Shown here one piece after another: positions 10,854-49,665 of a DNA stretch of 64,000 nt (positions within the stretch are counted from its first letter, which is position 1; each line of letters opens with the position of its first letter). The DNA comes from Pseudobdellovibrionaceae bacterium (GTDB lineage Bacteria; Bdellovibrionota; Bdellovibrionia; Bdellovibrionales; UBA1609): assembly GCA_947444305.1 (NCBI GenBank), contig CANEZP010000004.1:124001-188000 (forward strand), written 5' to 3'. Under the pieces are notes generated by a model. It was not told the DNA's origin. It did no database searches and was given only the letters and a program-made list of their open reading frames with translations. The translations under genes and the position numbers were made by a program.

Positions 10854-12178
10854 ATTTTCCTCGTTTTGAATTTCTCGTAAGCGACGAGCGCCCGGCGGCG
10901 GGCGGCCTCGTGATCGACCATGGGTTCGGGATAGCGGCTGGAGTCTACTTCGGGCACCCAGCGTTTGATGTATTCTTGGGCTTTGTCGAATCGTTTCGTT
11001 TGGGCTGCGGGACTGAAAATCCTGAAGTACGGCGCGGCGTCGACGCCGCAACCGGCGACCCACTGCCAATTACCCACGTTCGAAGACAAATCGAAATCGT
11101 AAAGTTTAGCGGCGAAATAACGCTCGCCTAATTTCCAATTCAGCAAAAGATGTTTACACAAAAAGCTGCCCACGATCATGCGCGCGCGGTTATGCATAAA
11201 GCCGGTCTCGTTCAGCTCGCGCATGCCGGCGTCGACGATGGGGTAACCCGTCTGGCCTTCTTGCCACCGTTTCAAATCGGCGGCGTTCTCGCGGTAAGGG
11301 AACTTTTTAAATTTTTCGTCAAACGGTTCATTCACGGTGTGCGGAAAGTGAAAGAGGATCGCGCTAAAAAACTCGCGCCATACGAGTTCCTTAAGCCAGA
11401 CCTCAGAATGCTTGTGCGCCAAGCGCGCGGCCGCGCGAACCGATTCGGTCCCGAAGCGCAGGTGCAAACCGATCTTCGTGGTCGCATCGAGGGCCATAAA
11501 ATTGCGGCGATCGGCGTACGGCGTGATGACGCTATGGTGAATCCGCAGCGCGGGCACGGGAATCGGCGAAGGCCAAAAGCCAAGTTCTTTAAGTGAGGGA
11601 ACGGGGTGCTGCGCGCCCGTGGGCTTGCCGCCGGTGCCGGAATGCTCGCGCAGCAGTTTGGCCGACGGATACGACGGCAATTTTTCGGTGGTGAATTTCG
11701 CCAGCCAACGCTTCGCGAACGGCGTGTACACCTTGTAGGGCGTGCCGTCGTCTTTCGTGATGTCCGTTTTACCGAAGATCACGTGATCTTTAAACGTGCG
11801 GAACTCGGCACCGTGGCGCTTCGCTACGGCGGCGATCTTTTCGTCACGCGTGATCGCGTAGGGTTCGTAATCTTCGTTGGCGTAGACCGCAGAAACCTTA
11901 TGTTTCTCAAAAAGCTGTTCGAAGATTTTCAACGGTTTGCCGTGAAAAACTTGAAGCTGCGAATGGTGAGTTTTGAATTCCTCGGCGAGTTTTTCAACCG
12001 CGCCGTGCAGGAACGTGACCCTCGAGTCATCCTGCTCGAGGGAATTTAGGATATCGCTGTCGAAAATAAAAATCGGTAATACTTGCGAATGAGATTTGAG
12101 CGCCTCGGCCAATCCGTGATTGTCGTCTATTCTTAAATCACGGCGAAACCAAAAAATAATCACGGGCGATGAGCTCAT
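10850..12178 (-). CDS. phr: Deoxyribodipyrimidine photolyase
   Basis: The 442-residue flavoprotein repairs UV-induced pyrimidine dimers with blue light. The N-terminal antenna domain begins WFRRDLRIDDNHGL. The FAD domain shows VWRE, TGYPIVDAGMREL, GFMHNRARM and NWQWVAGCGVDAAPYFRIF, all strongly conserved in class I CPD photolyases; a DASH-type RNA/ssDNA enzyme would differ here. It is the first gene of a two-gene operon with the epimerase. Confidence 0.94.
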   Translation of the reverse strand: MSSSPVIIFWFRRDLRIDDNHGLAEALKSHSQVLPIFIFDSDILNSLEQDDSRVTFLHGAVEKLAEEFKTHHSQLQVFHGKPLKIFEQLFEKHKVSAVYANEDYEPYAITRDEKIAAVAKRHGAEFRTFKDHVIFGKTDITKDDGTPYKVYTPFAKRWLAKFTTEKLPSYPSAKLLREHSGTGGKPTGAQHPVPSLKELGFWPSPIPVPALRIHHSVITPYADRRNFMALDATTKIGLHLRFGTESVRAAARLAHKHSEVWLKELVWREFFSAILFHFPHTVNEPFDEKFKKFPYRENAADLKRWQEGQTGYPIVDAGMRELNETGFMHNRARMIVGSFLCKHLLLNWKLGERYFAAKLYDFDLSSNVGNWQWVAGCGVDAAPYFRIFSPAAQTKRFDKAQEYIKRWVPEVDSSRYPEPMVDHEAARRRALVAYEKFKTRKI

Positions 12179-12231
12179 CGCCCATGACTATCCGGTATCG
12201 GTATGGAGTCAAGTCTGCCTTTAGACGGAGA

Positions 12232-16199: not shown

Positions 16200-17723
16200 T
16201 TATTCCCATTCGATGGTGCCGGGCGGCTTACTGGTCACGTCGTAAACCACGCGGTTTACGCCCCGCACTTCGTTGGTAATCCGGTTGGAAACGTGTGCCA
16301 TAAATTGAGGATCGAAGGGATACCAATCCGCCGTCATACCGTCGGAACTGGTCACCGCCCTAAGCGCCACGACTTTATCGTAGGTACGGTTGTCACCTTG
16401 GACTCCCACCGTCTTGACCGGCAACAGCACGCAGAAGGCCTGCCAGATTTTATCGTACAGATTATTTTTCTCAAGCTCGCCGATGTAGATGGCGTCGACT
16501 TCTTTTAAGATATGAAGATCTTCTTCATTGATCGGCCCGATCAAACGGATCGCGAGACCCGGCCCAGGGAAAGGATGCCGCCACAAAAACTTCGGCGGAA
16601 TTCCGAGATCGGCGCCGATTTTACGAACCTCGTCTTTAAATAATTCGCGCAAAGGCTCGATTAATTTCAGACCCAGATCTTTCGGCAGCCCACCGACATT
16701 GTGGTGAGATTTAATCGTGACGCTGGTCCCGCGCGGCGAAACCGATTCGATCACGTCGGGATAAAGCGTGCCCTGCGCGAGCCATTGGCAATCCCCGACT
16801 TGCTTAAACGCTTTTTTGAAAACCGTGATGAACTCACGGCCGATGATTTTGCGCTTTGTTTCGGGATCTTCGACGCCGTTTAAATGCGACATAAAATCTT
16901 TGCGCGCATCAACGCCGAGCACGTTCAAATTCAATTCTTTATAAAGCGTCTGCACATTTTCGAATTCGTTTTTGCGCAGCAATCCGTTGTCGACGAAAAC
17001 GCACTTCACCTGATCGGGCCCGAGCGCCCGGGTGAGCAACGTGGCGGTGACGGTCGAATCCACGCCGCCGCTGAGCGCGCACAACACCTGCTCGTTGCCG
17101 ACGCGCGTTTTGATGTCGTGCAAGAGATGCTCGGTGATCAAATGCGGTGACCAATTTTCTTTGGCTTTACAGAAATCAAAAAGAAAGCTGCGCACGAAAT
17201 CAACGCCGCCTTCGGTGTGCGCCACCTCGGGGTGAAACTGCACCGCCCAAAATCTTTCGCCCGCCATTGCCGCCGGATGATCGCTGCCGCTGGTCGCGAC
17301 GATCCGCGCGCCCGGGGGTGCCTTCGTGATCACGTCGCCGTGACTCATCCATACCTTTTGCGACTGGGGCCAAGGACCTAGATTCTCGCTCCAATTCACT
17401 TGGTTAAATCCGTATTCACGCTTCGCCGCTCGCTCTACTTTGCCGCCGAGTTTTTCGGCGAGGAGCTGCATGCCGTAGCAAATACCGAGCACCGGCGCTA
17501 ACTCCATCAGCTCTTTCACGTCACGAAGGGGTGCCTGCGGATCGTCCACGCTGTTCGGGCCGCCGGACAAAATGATGGCGACGGGTTTACGTTTTTTAAT
17601 CTCCGTAAGCGGCGTATCGAACAGCATGAGCTCGGAAAATACGCCGAGCTCGCGGCAACGCCGGGCGATCAATTGAGTGTACTGGGACCCGAAATCGAGA
17701 ATTACTACGCCATTTTCAACCAT
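16200..17723 (-). CDS. guaA: GMP synthase (glutamine-hydrolysing)
   Basis: The 507-residue enzyme converts XMP to GMP with glutamine and ATP, the last step of guanine nucleotide synthesis. The N-terminal class I amidotransferase domain shows ILDFGSQYTQLIARR, the nucleophile cysteine in GICYGMQ, and HPEVAHTE. The synthetase domain has the P-loop SGGVDSTV, and the protein ends with DVTSKPPGTIEWE as in the family. The partner enzyme guaB lies 1.1 kb away on the same strand, upstream but separated by an opposing regulator gene. Confidence 0.98.
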   Translation of the reverse strand: MVENGVVILDFGSQYTQLIARRCRELGVFSELMLFDTPLTEIKKRKPVAIILSGGPNSVDDPQAPLRDVKELMELAPVLGICYGMQLLAEKLGGKVERAAKREYGFNQVNWSENLGPWPQSQKVWMSHGDVITKAPPGARIVATSGSDHPAAMAGERFWAVQFHPEVAHTEGGVDFVRSFLFDFCKAKENWSPHLITEHLLHDIKTRVGNEQVLCALSGGVDSTVTATLLTRALGPDQVKCVFVDNGLLRKNEFENVQTLYKELNLNVLGVDARKDFMSHLNGVEDPETKRKIIGREFITVFKKAFKQVGDCQWLAQGTLYPDVIESVSPRGTSVTIKSHHNVGGLPKDLGLKLIEPLRELFKDEVRKIGADLGIPPKFLWRHPFPGPGLAIRLIGPINEEDLHILKEVDAIYIGELEKNNLYDKIWQAFCVLLPVKTVGVQGDNRTYDKVVALRAVTSSDGMTADWYPFDPQFMAHVSNRITNEVRGVNRVVYDVTSKPPGTIEWE

Positions 17724-17758
17724 GCGCGGACCTTACGAAATCAGGGCCGGAGAGTCCA

Positions 17759-17822
17759 TAAAAACGTCGGCGAAAAGCCGTTAAAGGGCACCGCTCCCCT
17801 CGTAAAATCGAGGGCGCGGTGG
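17759..17822 (-). promoter_or_regulatory. Structured guaA leader with terminator-like hairpin
   Basis: On the minus strand a 12-bp stem (17789-17802 with 17809-17821, a small internal bulge) is followed by a short CGGC/GCCG hairpin (17768-17780) and then ACGTTTTT, the form of a weak intrinsic terminator about 40 bp before the guaA ATG. This would suit attenuation of guaA. It may equally belong to the leader of the rightward regulator at 17873. No known riboswitch core is evident to me. Confidence 0.4.
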
Positions 17823-17872
17823 TCCCGGCCTTGCTCTAGTCAGCTCTCGCACAAGAAAAATCGGAGAACGGA

Positions 17873-18505
17873 ATGGCTTTAAACGCACGGTCCATTGGCT
17901 TGAAAATTCAGCAAGCTCGAGTGGCAAAGGGTATGACACAGGGAGAGCTCGCCAAGGCTCTAGGTATCGACCGTGGCTCAGTAGGTCGGTGGGAGACCGG
18001 CCGTTCCGTTCCCCGACAAGTAGGCATCCCGAAAGTCGCCCAAATCTTGGGCCAAACCGCCGAGTGGTTACTCGCGGGCTCGGGTGATTACAACGCCGCT
18101 AACGAAACGGTCGAAGTTTTGCGGGCCGAACGCCGCACCCTTAAAGAAATTCGCGAAGAAGTGAAGAAGCTCGCCGACGCGAAACGTGAATCGAAAAAAG
18201 CTTATGTTACATCGTCGGTTCGCGCGCCGGTTTCGCCGGCCGGATTGAAAGCCGCGAAAAGCCTAAAAGCGCCCGCCGCCGGCGTGCCCGAGGCAACGGC
18301 AAACGCCCAGGCTCCGGCACACGTGAAGCTCGATAAAAAAGCGCTCGAAGATCTGATGGCGGCCTGGGATTCCGCTAAACCCGAAGCCCGTCTGATTGCC
18401 GCACTTATCATCACGGGCGATTGGTCTTATAAACTAAAGTTGATGAATCGCGAAATCTCGGTGGACGAAGAAGTTTTATCCATCCTCGGTTCCGTCACCG
18501 CGTAA
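17873..18505 (+). CDS. Xre-type regulator with long C-terminal region
   Basis: The 210-residue protein begins with a Cro/CI helix-turn-helix (residues about 8-65: LKIQQARVAKGMTQGELAKA, RGSVGRWETG). A charged helical linker and an alanine/proline-rich segment (residues about 110-145) lead to a C-terminal helical part ending around EEVLSILGSV. The ATG at 17873 is preceded by GGAG at suitable spacing. It diverges from guaA by 149 bp and converges on guaB, so a role in purine gene control is possible but unproven. Confidence 0.8.
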   Translation: MALNARSIGLKIQQARVAKGMTQGELAKALGIDRGSVGRWETGRSVPRQVGIPKVAQILGQTAEWLLAGSGDYNAANETVEVLRAERRTLKEIREEVKKLADAKRESKKAYVTSSVRAPVSPAGLKAAKSLKAPAAGVPEATANAQAPAHVKLDKKALEDLMAAWDSAKPEARLIAALIITGDWSYKLKLMNREISVDEEVLSILGSVTA

Positions 18506-18533
18506 CGCAGCTTTTCTTTTCTGGAATTTAAAC

Positions 18534-18626
18534 GGTGCGGTAAAATTGGTTTCGAAAGCCCAATCTGTTTCGGGCAGAGTCTGAGCATCCTGACAGTGGC
18601 CTTCTGCAGCCATCCCGGCTGCAGAA
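18534..18626 (+). repeat. REP-like element, orphan copy G
   Basis: The element has a conserved head (GCATCCTGACAGTGGC at 18585-18600) followed by a hairpin: TTCTGCAGCC (18602-18611), loop ATCCC, GGCTGCAGAA (18617-18626). Weaker similarity to the other two copies extends about 50 bases upstream (GGTG, AAGCCCAATCTGT, GGCAGAGT). Its stem bases differ from those of the copies at 29707-29798 and 49470-49565 in both arms, so pairing is kept. The GTGG directly before the hairpin recalls the tetranucleotide of classic REPs. No RAYT gene is adjacent. Confidence 0.8.
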
Positions 18627-18759
18627 CCAAAAAGAATAAATCGATTTAAATTTTTGTCGAAACGCCAGGACGGCGGCTTGAAAAGTATTTCCAAGGATGG
18701 ATGAGCCGGAAGCATTCCTTACCACTGTGTTCGCTCGCGGCTACAATCCGCCACTGTCT

Positions 18760-18783
18760 ACTATGTCCAAAATCCGACATAGT
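18760..18783. repeat. ACTATGTC/GACATAGT palindrome
   Basis: Eight-base perfect arms are separated by eight bases, 66 bp downstream of the guaB stop. On the minus strand it is flanked by CAGCGT and GACAGTGGCGG, which resemble the two halves of the REP head, so this may be a decayed or altered fourth REP copy. It could also act as a guaB terminator stem, but there is no T-run. Confidence 0.4.
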
Positions 18784-18848
18784 ACGCTGAGGGTTTAGCA
18801 TGCCTCGCCACACCCCAAGGCCATTATCTAATCCGCGCGATCCCAACG

Positions 18849-20315
18849 CTACTCGAGGCGGTAGTTCGGCGCTTCTTTCGTAATGCTGACGTCATGGACG
18901 TGGCTCTCGCGCAAGCCTTGCGGTGAAACGCGGATAAAACGTGCGCGCTTTTGCAACTCATCGATGTTTTTCGCACCGACGTAGCCCATGCCGCTTTTCA
19001 AACCGCCGACCAATTGGTGCAGAATCCCGCGCGCGCTGCCGCGGTAAGGAACCCGGCCTTCGATGCCTTCGGGCACGAGCTTGTCGTTCTCGGTAACATC
19101 GGCTTGCCCGTAGCGGTCCTTCGAGCCTTTTTGCATGGCGCCGAGCGAACCCATCCCGCGATAAAGTTTGTACGTGCGGCCTTGATACAAAATGGTTTCA
19201 CCGGGCGATTCGTCGGCACCGGCCAAAAGATTTCCGATCATGACGGTGTTCGCGCCGAGCGCGAGCGCTTTCGAGATATCGCCCGAGAACTTAATGCCGC
19301 CGTCGGCGATGATGGTCTTGCCTTTTTTCTTCGCGGCTTTTGAACATTCCATCACGGCCGTAAGTTGCGGCATTCCCACGCCGGAGACGATGCGCGTAGT
19401 ACAAATCGATCCGGGACCGACGCCGACTTTAACGACGTCGCAACCGGCGTCGAGTAAAGCCGAAGTCCCGTCGGCCGTGACGACGTTACCGCCGACGATG
19501 ACGACATCCTTCGATTGCGAAGCCACCCACTTCACCATCTCTAAAACATTTTTCGAGTGCCCGTGCGCCGTATCGACGCAAATGACGTCGGCCCCCGCGG
19601 CGATCAACGCACTCGCGCGGTCGCGCGAAGTTGCGTCAACGCCGATGGCGGCGCCCGCGAGCAAACGCCCGTGACGATCTTTGGTCGCCTGCGGAAAGGT
19701 CTGCGCTTTTTCGATATCTTTGATCGTGATCAAACCTTTAAGCATCCCTTTGTCGTCAACGATGGGGAGCTTCTCGATCCGATGCTTTTGCAAGATCACC
19801 TTCGCTTGCGCGAGCGTCGTGCCCACGGGCGCGGTGGCGAGCTTCTCGAGCTTAGTCATCGCGCTCGAGATGGGTTGCGAGGTGTTTGTTTCGAAGCGTA
19901 AATCGCGGTTGGTCAAAATACCGACCAACTTACCGCTCTCGGTAATGGGCACGCCACTGATCGAGTACCGGCGCATTAGATCGAGCGCCGCGGAAACGGG
20001 CTTGTCGGGCGAGAGCGTGATCGGCTCAAGGATCATGCCGCTTTCGTATTTTTTAACGCGTTCAACTTCGAAAGCCTGCGCTTCGATATCGAGGTTTTTG
20101 TGGATGATGCCGAGGCCACCCATTTGCGCCATGATTTGCGCGATCTTGTGTTCGGTCACGGTGTCCATTGCCGCCGACATCACGGGCATCTTCAGCAAGA
20201 TGTCGCGTGCAAAAAAACTTTCGGTCGAAACTTCCGTAGGGATGATCTCGGAAAACTGCGGGATCAATAAAATATCGTCGAAGGTAAAGGCCATCGGAAT
20301 TTGCGTGTCTTCCAT
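18849..20315 (-). CDS. guaB: IMP dehydrogenase
   Basis: The 488-residue enzyme oxidises IMP to XMP with NAD, the committed step to guanine nucleotides. The TIM barrel is interrupted by two CBS domains (residues about 95-210; ISGVPITESGKLVGILTNRD is in the first). The active loop GPGSICTTRIVSGVG carries the catalytic cysteine, and the C-terminal flap has RYGQ and EGIEGRVPYRG. Length is typical. The gene for the carbonic-anhydrase-like protein ends one base before its start, so the two are one operon. A 44-bp copy of its 3' end is found at 29957-30000. Confidence 0.98.
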   Translation of the reverse strand: MEDTQIPMAFTFDDILLIPQFSEIIPTEVSTESFFARDILLKMPVMSAAMDTVTEHKIAQIMAQMGGLGIIHKNLDIEAQAFEVERVKKYESGMILEPITLSPDKPVSAALDLMRRYSISGVPITESGKLVGILTNRDLRFETNTSQPISSAMTKLEKLATAPVGTTLAQAKVILQKHRIEKLPIVDDKGMLKGLITIKDIEKAQTFPQATKDRHGRLLAGAAIGVDATSRDRASALIAAGADVICVDTAHGHSKNVLEMVKWVASQSKDVVIVGGNVVTADGTSALLDAGCDVVKVGVGPGSICTTRIVSGVGMPQLTAVMECSKAAKKKGKTIIADGGIKFSGDISKALALGANTVMIGNLLAGADESPGETILYQGRTYKLYRGMGSLGAMQKGSKDRYGQADVTENDKLVPEGIEGRVPYRGSARGILHQLVGGLKSGMGYVGAKNIDELQKRARFIRVSPQGLRESHVHDVSITKEAPNYRLE

Positions 20316-28086: not shown

Positions 28087-29082
28087 ATGGCCGGCGGCAT
28101 TAAGAAGCTCGGGAAGAACGACATTTTATTTCGCGAAGGCGACGAGAGTGACGCAATGTACGTCATCAAATCGGGCCGCATCGCGATCACCAAATCCAAA
28201 GGCAGCGGCGAAATCATCTTAGCCGAAAAAACCGGCGGCGAAATGCTCGGCGAAATGGCTTTCTTCGACAACAAACCGCGCTCGGCCGGCGCGAAAGCGA
28301 TGGGCGACACCGAAGTTATCTCGCTCCCATTCGCTTCGCTCCACGCGCAGTTCAAAACTTTTCCCGAGTGGCTAAAGGCGATGGTCAAAACGATCAACGG
28401 CCAGCTGCGTGATGCGAACACGCGGATTAAAAATCTCGAGGCCGTCACCGCGGGCGACGCCGAGATGTTTCCGCCGCACCTGACCACCCGTTTGACGGCG
28501 ATCATCAGCCTCATTGGTTTCAAGTGCGGAGAGCCTACGCCCGAGGGGGGCCTCGTCGTTCCTTATTCTGTCTTGCGTGAGTACTGCATTCAGATTTTTC
28601 AGCAGCCGACCAACAAGCTCGATAAATTGATGGACGTACTGCAAGCGCTTCAGCTCATGAAGGTTGAGGATTTAGGCGAAGGCCGAAAACGCATCACCAT
28701 CGTGAACCATAAGGTCATCACCGGCTTTACCGACTGGTACAATCGCTACATTTTCACCGAAAAATCGAAGCAGATCACGATCGAAGAAAAAGAACTACAG
28801 ACTCTGCGGGCCCTCGTCTTCTACGGCCGAAAACTGACCGCCGACGACAAGGGATTCGTGAAGGTATCCCTCACCGACATGCAGAATAATTCCATGCGCG
28901 ATCTCAATTTTCTATTCAGCGTGAACGAAGCCGATACCTTAGCCGAAAAGGGTTTGGTCCAAGAGAAATCCTCCGAACAAGGCGGCGCTTTGTCGATGCG
29001 TTTTAAAATGTCTGATCTCGAATCGATTTTGCCGTACTGGGAAATCGTCTACACGCTCAAAAAAGTCCCCGCGCGCGGCTAA
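28087..29082 (+). CDS. Cyclic-nucleotide-binding domain protein
   Basis: The 331-residue protein starts with a CAP-like sensor domain (residues about 5-115) with FREGDESDAMYVIKSG and the phosphate-cassette region GEMLGEMAFFDNKPRSAGAK. The remaining 200 residues are helical with a possible winged helix (around residues 150-225), but I cannot name the output domain and no clear Crp helix-turn-helix is seen. It is a candidate target of the CHASE2 adenylate cyclase at 44232-46940. Its TAA overlaps the TAG of the convergent RAYT gene. Confidence 0.85.
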   Translation: MAGGIKKLGKNDILFREGDESDAMYVIKSGRIAITKSKGSGEIILAEKTGGEMLGEMAFFDNKPRSAGAKAMGDTEVISLPFASLHAQFKTFPEWLKAMVKTINGQLRDANTRIKNLEAVTAGDAEMFPPHLTTRLTAIISLIGFKCGEPTPEGGLVVPYSVLREYCIQIFQQPTNKLDKLMDVLQALQLMKVEDLGEGRKRITIVNHKVITGFTDWYNRYIFTEKSKQITIEEKELQTLRALVFYGRKLTADDKGFVKVSLTDMQNNSMRDLNFLFSVNEADTLAEKGLVQEKSSEQGGALSMRFKMSDLESILPYWEIVYTLKKVPARG

Positions 29083-29660
29083 GTTCCGCAAGGGTGCCGC
29101 GCTCCGTTTGAAATCTCATCGTAAAAATCACGCAAGTCTTTCAGCGTTTTAAAATCCTTGCGCGAAAGAAACCCGGCGGCTTCCAACTGATTCAACTTCA
29201 CATACTCTAGCAGAGTTTGAAACGCCTTCTTCCACCCACGAACAATGCGAGTGTGCGGACGAAATAACCAAAGTTTTTCGCCCGCCATTACGCCCTTCAG
29301 AGCCAAACCCAACCGTCCCGTCAACTCACGAATAAAAGCTGCCCACCGCCGTACGTGCGAAATTTGAATCGCAAGGTGCAGATGGTTCCCGACGTTCGCG
29401 CGCTTGAAGATCTTCACACCATGCTTCTTCGCGACCGTCGAAATTAATTTCTCCACCACTGCGAAGTATTTCGGCGTACGCAAGACACTCTTCGTCGCGC
29501 GCATAGTGAGATGTATGGGCCACTTTAAATCCAACGGACGCGCCCGCTTGGCGTTTCCTTTAAGTAAAGCTCCACCGAACGCATCGGATGGCTTTTGGAA
29601 TCCCTCACCCTTAAATTCTTGTTGGTTCTTCGTTCTCGACATCCGTTGTTTATAGACCAT
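29079..29660 (-). CDS. REP-associated tyrosine transposase (RAYT), intact
   Basis: The ATG at 29660 has GGGAG just upstream and gives 193 residues. Longer open sequence upstream (to 29903) runs through the REP element and a pentanucleotide repeat and is rejected as coding. The HUH-type single-strand transposase motif is NHLHLAIQ, and the catalytic tyrosine is in LEYVKLNQ. The N-terminal block DAFGGALLKGNAKRARPL aligns with the second RAYT in the window. RAYTs nick and join single strands at REP hairpins; here a REP-like element lies 47 bp upstream. The stop shares bases with the convergent cNMP gene stop. Confidence 0.9.
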   Translation of the reverse strand: MVYKQRMSRTKNQQEFKGEGFQKPSDAFGGALLKGNAKRARPLDLKWPIHLTMRATKSVLRTPKYFAVVEKLISTVAKKHGVKIFKRANVGNHLHLAIQISHVRRWAAFIRELTGRLGLALKGVMAGEKLWLFRPHTRIVRGWKKAFQTLLEYVKLNQLEAAGFLSRKDFKTLKDLRDFYDEISNGARHPCGT

Positions 29661-29706
29661 CGCTCCCTTTACGCAAACAAATATTATGTATCTATTGGTC
29701 TTTGGC

Positions 29707-29798
29707 GGTGCATAAACTTTGCTTGAAGGCCCCATTGTGGAGGTGCAGAGATTTAGCGTCCTGACAGTGGCGTTCCGACGCCGTCCGCGGCGTCGGAA
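29707..29798 (+). repeat. REP-like element, copy R
   Basis: The head TTAGCGTCCTGACAGTGGC (29753-29771 region) is followed by the hairpin TTCCGACGCCG (29773-29783), loop TCCG, CGGCGTCGGAA (29788-29798). Homology to the other copies starts at GGTG (29707) and includes TTGAAGGCCCC and TGCAGAG. It is 47 bp upstream of the RAYT start, with the head nearer to the gene than the hairpin. Confidence 0.85.
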
Positions 29799-29850
29799 AT
29801 TGATTATTGGGGAGAGTTTTTCTTTTTGCGGGAGGAACAAGGTCGTTTTT

Positions 29851-29890
29851 GAACTGAGTTGAACTGAGTTGAGTTGAGTTGAGTTGAGTT
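29851..29890 (+). repeat. GAGTT pentanucleotide repeat tract
   Basis: Two GAACTGAGTT units are followed by four GAGTT units, 40 bp in all. The tract is non-coding here and would be prone to slippage. Confidence 0.9.
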
Positions 29891-29956
29891 CGGACTGACG
29901 CACCTTTTCCTGTCTAGACAGAAAATCATGCGTTATCCGAACTGTGCTGTTTGAAA

Positions 29957-30000
29957 CGTTATTCGAGACGGTAGTTCGGGTTTCTTTGGTGATGCTCTCG
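29957..30000 (-). pseudogene. Relic of the guaB 3' end
   Basis: These 44 bases align with 18846-18890, the last codons of guaB plus five bases beyond its stop, with one missing base and about nine mismatches. On the minus strand the frame reads SITKE then shifts, where guaB reads SITKEAPNYRLE-stop. It is too short to do anything as a protein. It suggests that DNA from the guaB 3' flank was once copied here, or that an older guaB copy was lost. Confidence 0.6.
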
Positions 30001-30032
30001 CTATTTTAGATCGATCGCGTGGAGAGCGTTTT

Positions 30033-30422
30033 TTACTGGCACTTTTTTAGTAAATCGTGGAGTTGTTGGTATTCGCGTCGGTTGTAGGAGGCGGTTTTGT
30101 TGATTAGGCCGCGTAGGCATTTTCCCGTTCCGTTGCCCTCGCAAGCGCGGATAAGTTTTAGAAATTCTTTGGCGCTGGTGCCGTCGCTTGGGTGTAGAGA
30201 TTGTCCGAGTTCCGAAACGCAATCGGCTTCCACGTCTTTGCATGCGGCAAGGACTTGCGACTCATTTTCTCCGTGATAATCGGAGGAACTCAGGAAGCGT
30301 TTCGCTTGCTCGAAGCAGGCCGCGGTATTTTCGTTTTCTAATCTTGGGTCGCTCGCGAAGGCTCCCGATGCCACGGATGTACAAATAAGTAAGACAGAAA
30401 TTTTGAGCGACTTCACGACCAT
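30033..30422 (-). CDS. Small exported cysteine-containing protein
   Basis: The 129-residue product has a signal peptide (about MVVKSLKISVLLICTSVASG AFA). The mature chain is about 105 residues, helical, with seven cysteines (for example AACFEQAK, AACKDVEADCVSEL and GKCLRGL), so disulphides are likely. The ATG has GGAG upstream. I do not recognise the family. Confidence 0.7.
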   Translation of the reverse strand: MVVKSLKISVLLICTSVASGAFASDPRLENENTAACFEQAKRFLSSSDYHGENESQVLAACKDVEADCVSELGQSLHPSDGTSAKEFLKLIRACEGNGTGKCLRGLINKTASYNRREYQQLHDLLKKCQ

Positions 30423-30447
30423 GCCTTATTCTCCGTGCGCGGCTTAA

Positions 30448-30954
30448 TTAAAAATAATAGCGGCCGCCCACGCCTAGGTCTAAGCGGCCCGCGGTGCTGG
30501 GAGTGAGCAGAAAGGTCGGGCCGATTTCGGCGAAGACGCCGAATTGGGTCGGTGCCGGATACCACTCGAAGCCGACGAGGCCGCGCACGAATACGCCCGT
30601 GCCCGATTCGGATTTACGCCGGCCGCAATCGTAGCGGCCGCATTCGTAAGAGTCGCTCCAAAAGCCGACGCCGCCCCCGCCGCCGATGTAGCCGCTGGTT
30701 TCGCGGCCGAAGCGCGTGCCGGAACCGAAGATGCCTGGAATATGCCAAAGGTAATCCGCGTAAACGGCGGTGCCGCCGCTAAATCCCAAACCGAAATCAA
30801 CCGCGCCCTGCTTGGACAACCAATACTTACCGGTCATCGCGACCATGTTGCCGACCATCAAACCGGCGCCGAACTTGTGCGTGTCGGTCGTGGCCGCGGA
30901 AGATGTCAGCGGAAGCGCGAGACATAGAACGCAGAAAAAACGCAGCAGCTTCAT
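30448..30954 (-). CDS. Small outer-membrane beta-barrel-like protein
   Basis: The 168-residue product has a signal peptide (MKLLRFFCVLCLALPLTSSA) and alternating glycine/aromatic strands ending in VGGRYYF, with the C-terminal phenylalanine expected for insertion by the BAM machinery. Size suggests an eight-strand barrel. A cysteine pair (YECGRYDCG) lies in a predicted loop. It sits two bases before the pyk stop, so it may be on the pyk transcript. Confidence 0.7.
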   Translation of the reverse strand: MKLLRFFCVLCLALPLTSSAATTDTHKFGAGLMVGNMVAMTGKYWLSKQGAVDFGLGFSGGTAVYADYLWHIPGIFGSGTRFGRETSGYIGGGGGVGFWSDSYECGRYDCGRRKSESGTGVFVRGLVGFEWYPAPTQFGVFAEIGPTFLLTPSTAGRLDLGVGGRYYF

Positions 30955-30956
30955 GA

Positions 30957-32456
30957 CTAGAATCCTTTGTTGAGATTCAAAATATCTTTTCGAACCCGTA
31001 ATGGAAGATCGTTGTCGGGCACGTCGACCCGGTCACGGGTCACCGTGTACACGCGAATGTTATTTGTCTTCGCGTTTTGGCGCACGGGTGAACCCATCGT
31101 GATGACGACTTTATCGCCCTTCTCGACGATGCCGATTTTCAATAGGAGTTCTTCGATCTGCTTCAAGGCTTCTTCGCTATTTTGATAAGCGTCGATTTTG
31201 AAGGTCTGAATACCCCAAACCAATTCTAACCGGTTGAGTGGATCAATCGTGTGCGTGATCGCCAAGATCGGACACGCGGGGCGTGAACCGGCGATGAGCG
31301 TGGCCGTCTTCCCGCTGGTGGTCAAACAGACCAACGCTTTCGCTTTTACTTTCAGCGCGGTGAGCGAAGCGGAGGCCGCGATCGCGTCGGGAACGTCGAG
31401 CACGTCGTCTTCGAGTGAGATGTCCCAGTACAAGTCCGAGGATTTTTGCACCTCGCAAATAATCTCGTGCATGGTCTTGATACATTTAAACGGATACTTC
31501 CCGCTCGCGCTTTCGGCGGACAACATCAACGCGTCGGAACCGTCGATGACGGCATTGGCGACGTCGGTGATCTCGGCCCGAGTCGGGCGCGGATTTTCGA
31601 CCATGCTGTCGAGCATCTGAGTTGCCGTGATAACGGGTTTGTTCATCATGTTGCACATGCGAATGATTCGCTTTTGAATACCCGGCAATTGGCTTTGGCC
31701 CGTTTCGATCGCCAAGTCGCCGCGCGCCACCATGATGGCGTCGCTGAGCTGAATGATTTCTTCGAGGTTGTCGAGGGCTTCGACCATTTCGATCTTCGCG
31801 ATGATTCGCGTGGCGGGACGGGTCGCGTTCACCAATTCACGAAGCTTTACGATATCGCTGCCTTGGCGGACAAAACTTAAAGCCACGTAGTCGACGTTTT
31901 TTTCGAGCCCGAACTGAAGATCGCGCAAGTCTTTCTCGGTCATGGCTTCGATCGGCAAGTTCGCGCCGGGCACGTTCATGCCTTTGCGATCTTTGAGCAG
32001 ACCACCGTAGATGACTTCGCACTCGATAATCTTTTTACCGTCGGTCGACAGAACCTTTAAATCGATCAGCCCGTCGTCGAATAAAATGCGTTGGCCTTCC
32101 GAAACGGTGGTGGGCAGCGCCTTAAAATCCGTCGGGATGACCCCGGGCGTGCCGAGGATATCTTCGTTGGTGATGATGACCCGTTCGCCGTCGGCCAGAC
32201 GAACCGAACCGCCCTCAAATTTTCCGCAGCGAATTTTAGGACCCTGAAGATCCTGCAGGATAGAAACGGGAGCGTTCCATTTACGCGCGATTTCCCGCAC
32301 GTTTTCGATAACGCCCGCGTGCATCTCATGAGTGCCGTGCGAGAAGTTGAGGCGGGCAACGTTCATGCCCGACAGGATGGCTTTTTCGAGCGCCTCTTTG
32401 GTAAGGGTGCTCGGACCTATGGTAGCGACGATTTTTACTCTACGTTCAGAAAGCAT
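30957..32456 (-). CDS. pyk: Pyruvate kinase
   Basis: The 499-residue enzyme makes ATP and pyruvate from phosphoenolpyruvate and ADP. IVATIGPSTLTKEAL opens the barrel; the active-site signature is IIAKIEMVEALDNLEEI, with MVARGDLAIE and MNKPVITATQMLDSM after it. The C-terminal allosteric domain is present. It is the first gene before the two small envelope proteins, and follows a coiled-coil protein gene by 12 bp. Confidence 0.97.
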   Translation of the reverse strand: MLSERRVKIVATIGPSTLTKEALEKAILSGMNVARLNFSHGTHEMHAGVIENVREIARKWNAPVSILQDLQGPKIRCGKFEGGSVRLADGERVIITNEDILGTPGVIPTDFKALPTTVSEGQRILFDDGLIDLKVLSTDGKKIIECEVIYGGLLKDRKGMNVPGANLPIEAMTEKDLRDLQFGLEKNVDYVALSFVRQGSDIVKLRELVNATRPATRIIAKIEMVEALDNLEEIIQLSDAIMVARGDLAIETGQSQLPGIQKRIIRMCNMMNKPVITATQMLDSMVENPRPTRAEITDVANAVIDGSDALMLSAESASGKYPFKCIKTMHEIICEVQKSSDLYWDISLEDDVLDVPDAIAASASLTALKVKAKALVCLTTSGKTATLIAGSRPACPILAITHTIDPLNRLELVWGIQTFKIDAYQNSEEALKQIEELLLKIGIVEKGDKVVITMGSPVRQNAKTNNIRVYTVTRDRVDVPDNDLPLRVRKDILNLNKGF

Positions 32457-49264: not shown

Positions 49265-49665
49265 TTCCGGGTGGTTTCGACCAGCCCCCCGCCACCACAA
49301 TGACCCGACCGCTCGCACGGCCCCGAATTCTTAAGCCCGGCCCCGAATTCTTTAAACCGCCCGACTCTCCAGCCCGAATCCAAATCCTCAGACCGATCCC
49401 GGGCTTCCCGTCCCGACGTCAAAAAGACCTCCTCCCCAACAAAAAAACAAAACCTCCCACCTCCGCAATTTCCGACGCCGCGGACGGCGTCGGAACGCCA
49501 CTGCCAGGACGCTAAATCCCCGCGAAAAACAGATGAGGCCCTCGAAGATCAAACCCGGCAACACCGCCGACCCACTCAGCAATCAACCCGCGCCTCACGT
49601 TAAGAGACAGATTAAACCTTGACCAAAACGACGGGAAAATATACCTTCGTACACGTGAAGCAGTT
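49265..49665. other. Gene-free stretch upstream of the split RAYT
   Basis: No gene is visible. There is a 20-bp direct repeat (GGCCCCGAATTCTT at 49319 and 49339), a strongly C-rich plus strand from about 49280 to 49460, and a REP-like element at 49470-49565. A promoter-like TTGACC-N17-TACCTT ends about seven bases before the RAYT start codon. Confidence 0.6.
49470..49565 (-). repeat. REP-like element, copy I
   Basis: On the minus strand it reads as the copy at 29707-29798: GGTG, then ATTTAGCGTCCTGGCAGTGG, then a hairpin with identical 11-bp arms (49470-49480 and 49485-49495) but loop TCCG. Over the 52-base head-and-hairpin core only one base differs. It lies 90 bp upstream of the RAYT start codon, in the same orientation relative to the gene as the other copy. 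Confidence 0.85.

Follow-up and report, generated by a model that had tools for sequence, protein, structure and literature searches.

The question raised by this locus is how a scrap of guaB came to lie in a spacer next to a RAYT-like gene and a REP element, and whether either of these neighbors carried it there. The window (i.e., the whole stretch of DNA that was analyzed, 64,000 nucleotides in length) is part of contig C4 of a 4.17-Mb draft genome (G000). An earlier note on this DNA had described a relic of the guaB 3′ end beside a RAYT and a REP, and had proposed that a segment flanking guaB was copied together with a REP or that a RAYT moved neighboring sequence. Our analyses uphold the guaB relic and argue against both proposed routes. 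With a probability of about 0.6, we regard the relic as the scar left by a guaB end that had already diverged and that was most likely brought in from a related lineage, one closer to the congener G001.

Similarity to the guaB 3′ End

The two segments concerned are as follows:
29955-29996, minus strand: relic of the guaB 3′ end, with a 1-base deletion
18849-20315, minus strand: intact guaB (IMP dehydrogenase, 488 aa), whose 3′ end, 18845-18887, is the matching segment

Read on the plus strand, 29955-29996 aligned with 18845-18887 over 43 columns with 36 identities (83.7%) and one gap (E = 5.5e-4 in the self-comparison of the 64-kb window). Higher ranks in the self-comparison were taken by one pair of REPs, by a local repeat around 1.6-2.0 kb and by palindromes. 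The span covers the last 12 codons of guaB with the stop codon and the next 4 bases, and is translated as S I T K E (T, with the 1-base deletion) P N Y R L E stop; its frame is thus incomplete and disrupted. The match had been reported with ends that were off by a few bases, and it scored well above shuffled sequence. None of 5000 dinucleotide-preserving shuffles of 29801-30034 reached the relic score (49 vs. a maximum of 28), and the corresponding score was 47 vs. a maximum of 32 for random 60-mers of the window (up to 2000 60-mers).

As an independent and stronger test, the sequence 29880-30034 was compared with 140 genomes of the order, for which matches with E of up to 0.05 were accepted and at most six candidates per genome were scored. 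Matches were found in 24 of the 140 genomes, G000 included, and in 19 of the 23 others a match was situated at the guaB 3′ end, which was located by means of a degenerate pattern. The best match was that of the congener G001 (36 of 40 columns, E = 1.5e-7). Relatives recovered with a gene of the window were mostly metagenome-assembled Bdellovibrionales. Because the shuffles fell short of the relic score and the matches in 19 of the 23 other genomes were located at the guaB 3′ end, 29955-29996 is shown to derive from a guaB end. The same two results render a chance similarity, to which the shortness of the match would lend some weight, practically negligible. The similarity is of the coding type and above chance, as judged from the alignment, the shuffles, the other genomes and the codon-position pattern given below.

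An ungapped pattern for the guaB tail, which would miss relics with an indel such as the one at 29955-29996, found no ectopic guaB tail in the 140 genomes. Two extra tails were rejected as relics: the one in G046 results from contig ends that overlap by 141 bases, and the one in G018 belongs to a second full guaB on another contig. The guaB-guaA regions of two G018 contigs (L206 and L207) are almost the same but are flanked by different sequence, so that the assembly may contain strain variants or the region may truly be duplicated. A relic adjoining a longer piece of guaB was found in none of the genomes compared, nor was the relic found in the congeners, the guaB end of G001 excepted. A limited literature search also found no guaB-tail relic.

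Surroundings of the Relic in the cNMP-pyk Spacer

The gene for a cNMP-binding protein ends at 29082, and pyk (30957-32456) is convergent with it. The name pyk was given from the sequence read by eye, and the cNMP domain was assigned computationally. The spacer between them contains the RAYT gene, a REP, short tandem repeats, a palindrome, the relic, a terminator-like hairpin, orf129 and orf168. Apart from the RAYT gene, the REP and the palindrome, which are listed further below, its features are:
29083-30956: composite insertion of 1.9 kb between the cNMP-binding-protein gene and pyk, delimited by comparison with congeners
29849-29892, plus strand: short tandem repeats (TTGAACTGAG, then GAGTT units)
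29993-30034, plus strand: terminator-like hairpin with a T run, immediately following the relic (predicted fold, -12 kcal/mol), missed by a hairpin scan with a loop limit of 8
30033-30422, minus strand: orf129, a small predicted protein with a weak relative in G001 only (35%)
30448-30954, minus strand: orf168, a predicted protein with 65% identity to a G001 protein at another locus

The distance between the cNMP gene and pyk is ~10 bp in G003 and ~100 bp in G002, and these two congeners are without the 1.9-kb insertion. The G001 contig ends 144 bases past pyk, inside a tandem repeat that directly follows pyk (end of L213). A convergent pyk followed the cNMP gene in 23 of 32 loci (L067-L098), and by our own count the gap in these 23 loci is <200 bp in 12 and ~600-1,900 bp in 11. 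The spacer therefore varies, from <200 bp to ~1,900 bp across loci. The relic shows it to be a place that collects inserted material.

In G000 and in 14 of the 32 loci, guaB lies ~8-10 kb upstream of the cNMP gene and is encoded on the other strand; in the other 18 loci, no match to guaB was found within the locus sequence examined. Because guaB keeps its place ~8-10 kb from the cNMP gene, the proposal that the relic marks a former, ancestral site of guaB was rejected. The guaA-guaB stretch (16200-20315) differs by congener, with a helix-turn-helix gene and a REP in G000, a 388-aa gene in G003, and a peptidase-like gene and a 623-aa gene in G001.

The RAYT-Like Gene, the REP Elements and the Palindrome

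The elements to which the movement of the guaB tail had been attributed are:
29079-29660, minus strand: RAYT-like gene, 193 aa from ATG, with HLH at residue 93 and YVKLNQLEAAG at residue 153
29704-29799, plus strand: REP adjoining the RAYT-like gene, with a hairpin at 29773-29798
18533-18619, plus strand: REP downstream of guaB, 74% identical to the REP beside the RAYT-like gene

The RAYT-like protein matched Y1_Tnp weakly (E = 0.005, 17.4 bits, below the Pfam cut-off of 23). Of the HuH-type RAYT signature (H-x-H and a catalytic Tyr), HLH would be the first part, and the Tyr of the YVKLNQLEAAG stretch is the putative second. The protein has 29 matches in G000, the window copy included (loci L038-L066). 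Some 16 members of this RAYT-like family are at least 61% identical to the window copy, and 6 of the 29 matches have internal stops.

Carriage of flanking guaB sequence by the RAYT, as a HuH transposase, during its own movement would be in keeping with the multi-copy state of the family in G000, which must have spread in some way. The repeated DNA, however, stops short of the relic. The sequence common to the window RAYT and other copies runs from ~29123 to at most 29836 (as far as 29852 in the case of a single REP that belongs to a distant RAYT locus), and the RAYT-REP module ends >100 bp before the start of the relic at 29955, which places the relic outside the repeated module. Furthermore, at the score applied, a guaB tail was absent from all 28 other RAYT loci with their 1.5-kb flanks (shorter at two contig ends), and no RAYT was found near guaB in the guaB loci of the three congeners, of which that of G002 covers 3.5 kb. 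We consider such carriage very unlikely. RAYTs and REPINs were described previously (PMC2817692; PMC3116915). In PMC3116915, RAYTs are described as single-copy genes that seem to be incapable of moving on their own. The mode by which REPs spread is described as poorly understood (PMC8266576).

As the earlier note had observed, a REP and the guaB tail occur in the same order and orientation at both sites: the REP hairpin 29773-29798 ends 157 bp before the relic, and a distance of 226 bp separates the end of the REP unit 18533-18619 from the guaB match. Although this arrangement could suggest that the segment flanking guaB was copied together with its REP, the REPs and the tails are the sole aligning parts of the two sites. 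The spacers between them are unrelated (score 14 vs. a shuffle median of 15 and a 95th percentile of 20), the two REPs are only 74% alike when other REPs of G000 are up to 85% like the REP beside the RAYT over ~110 bases, and, by eye, a second part of the hairpin seems to be present at guaB and missing at the relic. Moreover, G001, the nearest genome by guaB tail, is without a REP after guaB, where another gene ends directly. Joint copying is highly improbable on these grounds. A third REP of the window (49419-49518, reverse strand) is 82% identical to 29750-29852.

With the ungapped pattern, no guaB-tail fragments were found near REPs in the related genomes, which is the absence that the earlier note had named as refuting its proposal; it counts against the part that involved the RAYT and REP. 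In view of the end of the module, the other RAYT loci, the unrelated spacers and G001, the matching arrangement of REP and tail is best read as a coincidence in a genome with many REPs. The case cautions against taking the vicinity of a RAYT as a sign that the RAYT moved the DNA.

Closer to the relic is one more element:
29887-29943: imperfect palindrome of a family dispersed in G000, 11 bases from the relic

The core of the palindrome resembles TTTCCTGTC-GACAGGAAA, and its ends resemble TAACGCA and TGCGTTA. Other copies in G000 are found at C13:92214, C2:108427, C3:101295, C10:113710, C13:95263, C9:73150, C5:30456 and C9:29607. Six of the 8 copies examined lie ≤33 bp from the stop codon that closes an open frame of 100 codons or more, and no member of the family was detected in any of the three congeners. 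It is conceivable, if very improbable, that foreign gene ends, each with a palindrome on its 3′ side, are captured at the RAYT/REP/palindrome cluster, which would serve as their landing or joining point; the guaB tail and its palindrome (29887-29996) would then be one such end. Elsewhere in the window, local direct and inverted repeats of 39-100 bases occur at 1617-2049, and a 36-base palindrome (89%) occurs at 12156-12191.

Unlikely Readings: Attachment Site or Antisense RNA

Gene 3′ ends are common as attachment sites, and the guaB-guaA stretch varies among the congeners, as would suit an integrative element that used the guaB 3′ end and left the relic as the remnant of its attachment site. 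The relic, however, is on the 5′ side of guaB, which is the wrong side for a site pair. No copy of the guaB tail beyond guaB itself was detected by the ungapped pattern in the 140 genomes, no match was found in phages, plasmids or viral contigs, and recurrent guaB-tail copies flanking integrase-bearing elements were absent from all of these collections. A limited literature search yielded no clear case; guaB appears in the name of one prophage (PMC10111431). An origin as an attachment site thus has very little probability.

RNA made from the plus strand of the relic would be antisense to guaB mRNA and could be ended by the hairpin at 29993-30034, which with its T run follows the relic. The predicted duplex with the end of the guaB mRNA is -63.1 kcal/mol vs. 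a minimum of -33.1 in 300 shuffles. Such pairing, however, follows from homology alone and falls well short of the -89.0 of a perfect duplex. The mismatches are mostly at third codon positions, no promoter-like site was seen on the plus strand just upstream, and the relic was not conserved as such in the congeners. We judge an antisense role to be just as improbable as an attachment site. A known RNA family was dropped as a candidate, as there was no Rfam match, and we take the relic to be non-functional now.

Origin of the Relic

The relic and the G000 guaB are on the same contig in the same orientation, 11 kb apart, and guaB is single in G000, where other matches to its protein are partial and ≤47% identical. 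In addition to the one deleted base, the relic differs from this guaB at 1, 0 and 5 of the first, second and third codon positions, respectively (13, 13 and 12 compared), i.e., at 5 of 12 third positions vs. 1 of 26 first and second positions (5 of the 6 differences at third positions; p ~0.008 by hand calculation). Its differences from the guaB end of G001 number 1, 0 and 2 (2 of 12 third positions), and those between the G000 and G001 tails are 0, 0 and 6 of 13 per codon position. Among 55 of the tails listed by the pattern, that of G001 is nearest to the relic (3 differences); the G000 guaB ranks joint 5th to 12th with 6 differences, a number that members of other families also show. Because 5 of 12 third positions differ and the G001 end is nearer, the relic is not a fresh copy of the G000 guaB. 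Most of the difference looks like divergence between working genes, with little decay since. Along guaB, the third-position identity between G000 and G001 is only 0.31-0.57, and a scrap that had drifted neutrally ever since these two genomes split should therefore be hard to recognize. Replacement of the 3′ end of the G000 guaB itself was dropped as a candidate, as third-position identity is not unusual at that end.

An older duplication of the G000 guaB end (e.g., a collapsed 11-kb tandem duplication), with both copies diverging since, is the leading but less probable alternative. It fits the shared contig and orientation over 11 kb, and two details favor such an own-lineage origin: AACG past the stop is common to the relic and the G000 guaB and differs in G001, and the Tyr codon TAC is common to both and absent from the three congeners. 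Neutral drift, however, should hit all codon positions alike, which is in contrast to the bias toward third positions, and G001 is nearer to the relic. A recent local copy would be near-identical and an old one changed at all positions; we rank import of a diverged guaB end ahead of local duplication. Against import, it must be said that only ~40 bases bear on the donor, that the distances of 3 and 6 are small numbers, that genomes of other families also reach 5 differences from the relic, and that no donor segment longer than the tail is apparent, as the palindrome family was not detected in the congeners.

Under the preferred import from a lineage nearer to G001, the source would be a guaB that had already diverged from the G000 copy. 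Either the imported DNA piece would have been broken inside guaB, or the rest of a guaB copy would have been lost later, and the relic would have lost one base after its arrival. The RAYT, REP and palindrome would be neighbors that gathered in the same spacer and not the vehicle of the relic. The observation is real, and its cause is most likely an ordinary one. As a gene-end scar that would record a past exchange or duplication, the relic alone matters little.

Comparison with Known Systems

The relic resembles attachment-site duplications at gene 3′ ends in being a copy of the 3′ end of a gene, and differs from them in its position on the wrong side of guaB, with no element and no second case. 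It resembles RAYT/REP (REPtron) modules in that a RAYT-like gene with a REP adjoins it, and is unlike them in lying outside the repeated module; PMC3116915 describes RAYTs as single-copy, in contrast to the 29 RAYT matches of G000. The core-gene fragments (pseudogene scars) in bacterial spacers are comparable in being truncated, frameshifted pieces of a housekeeping gene with an intact copy in the genome, although the guaB relic is only ~43 bases in length and is nearer to the gene end of a congener than to the local one.
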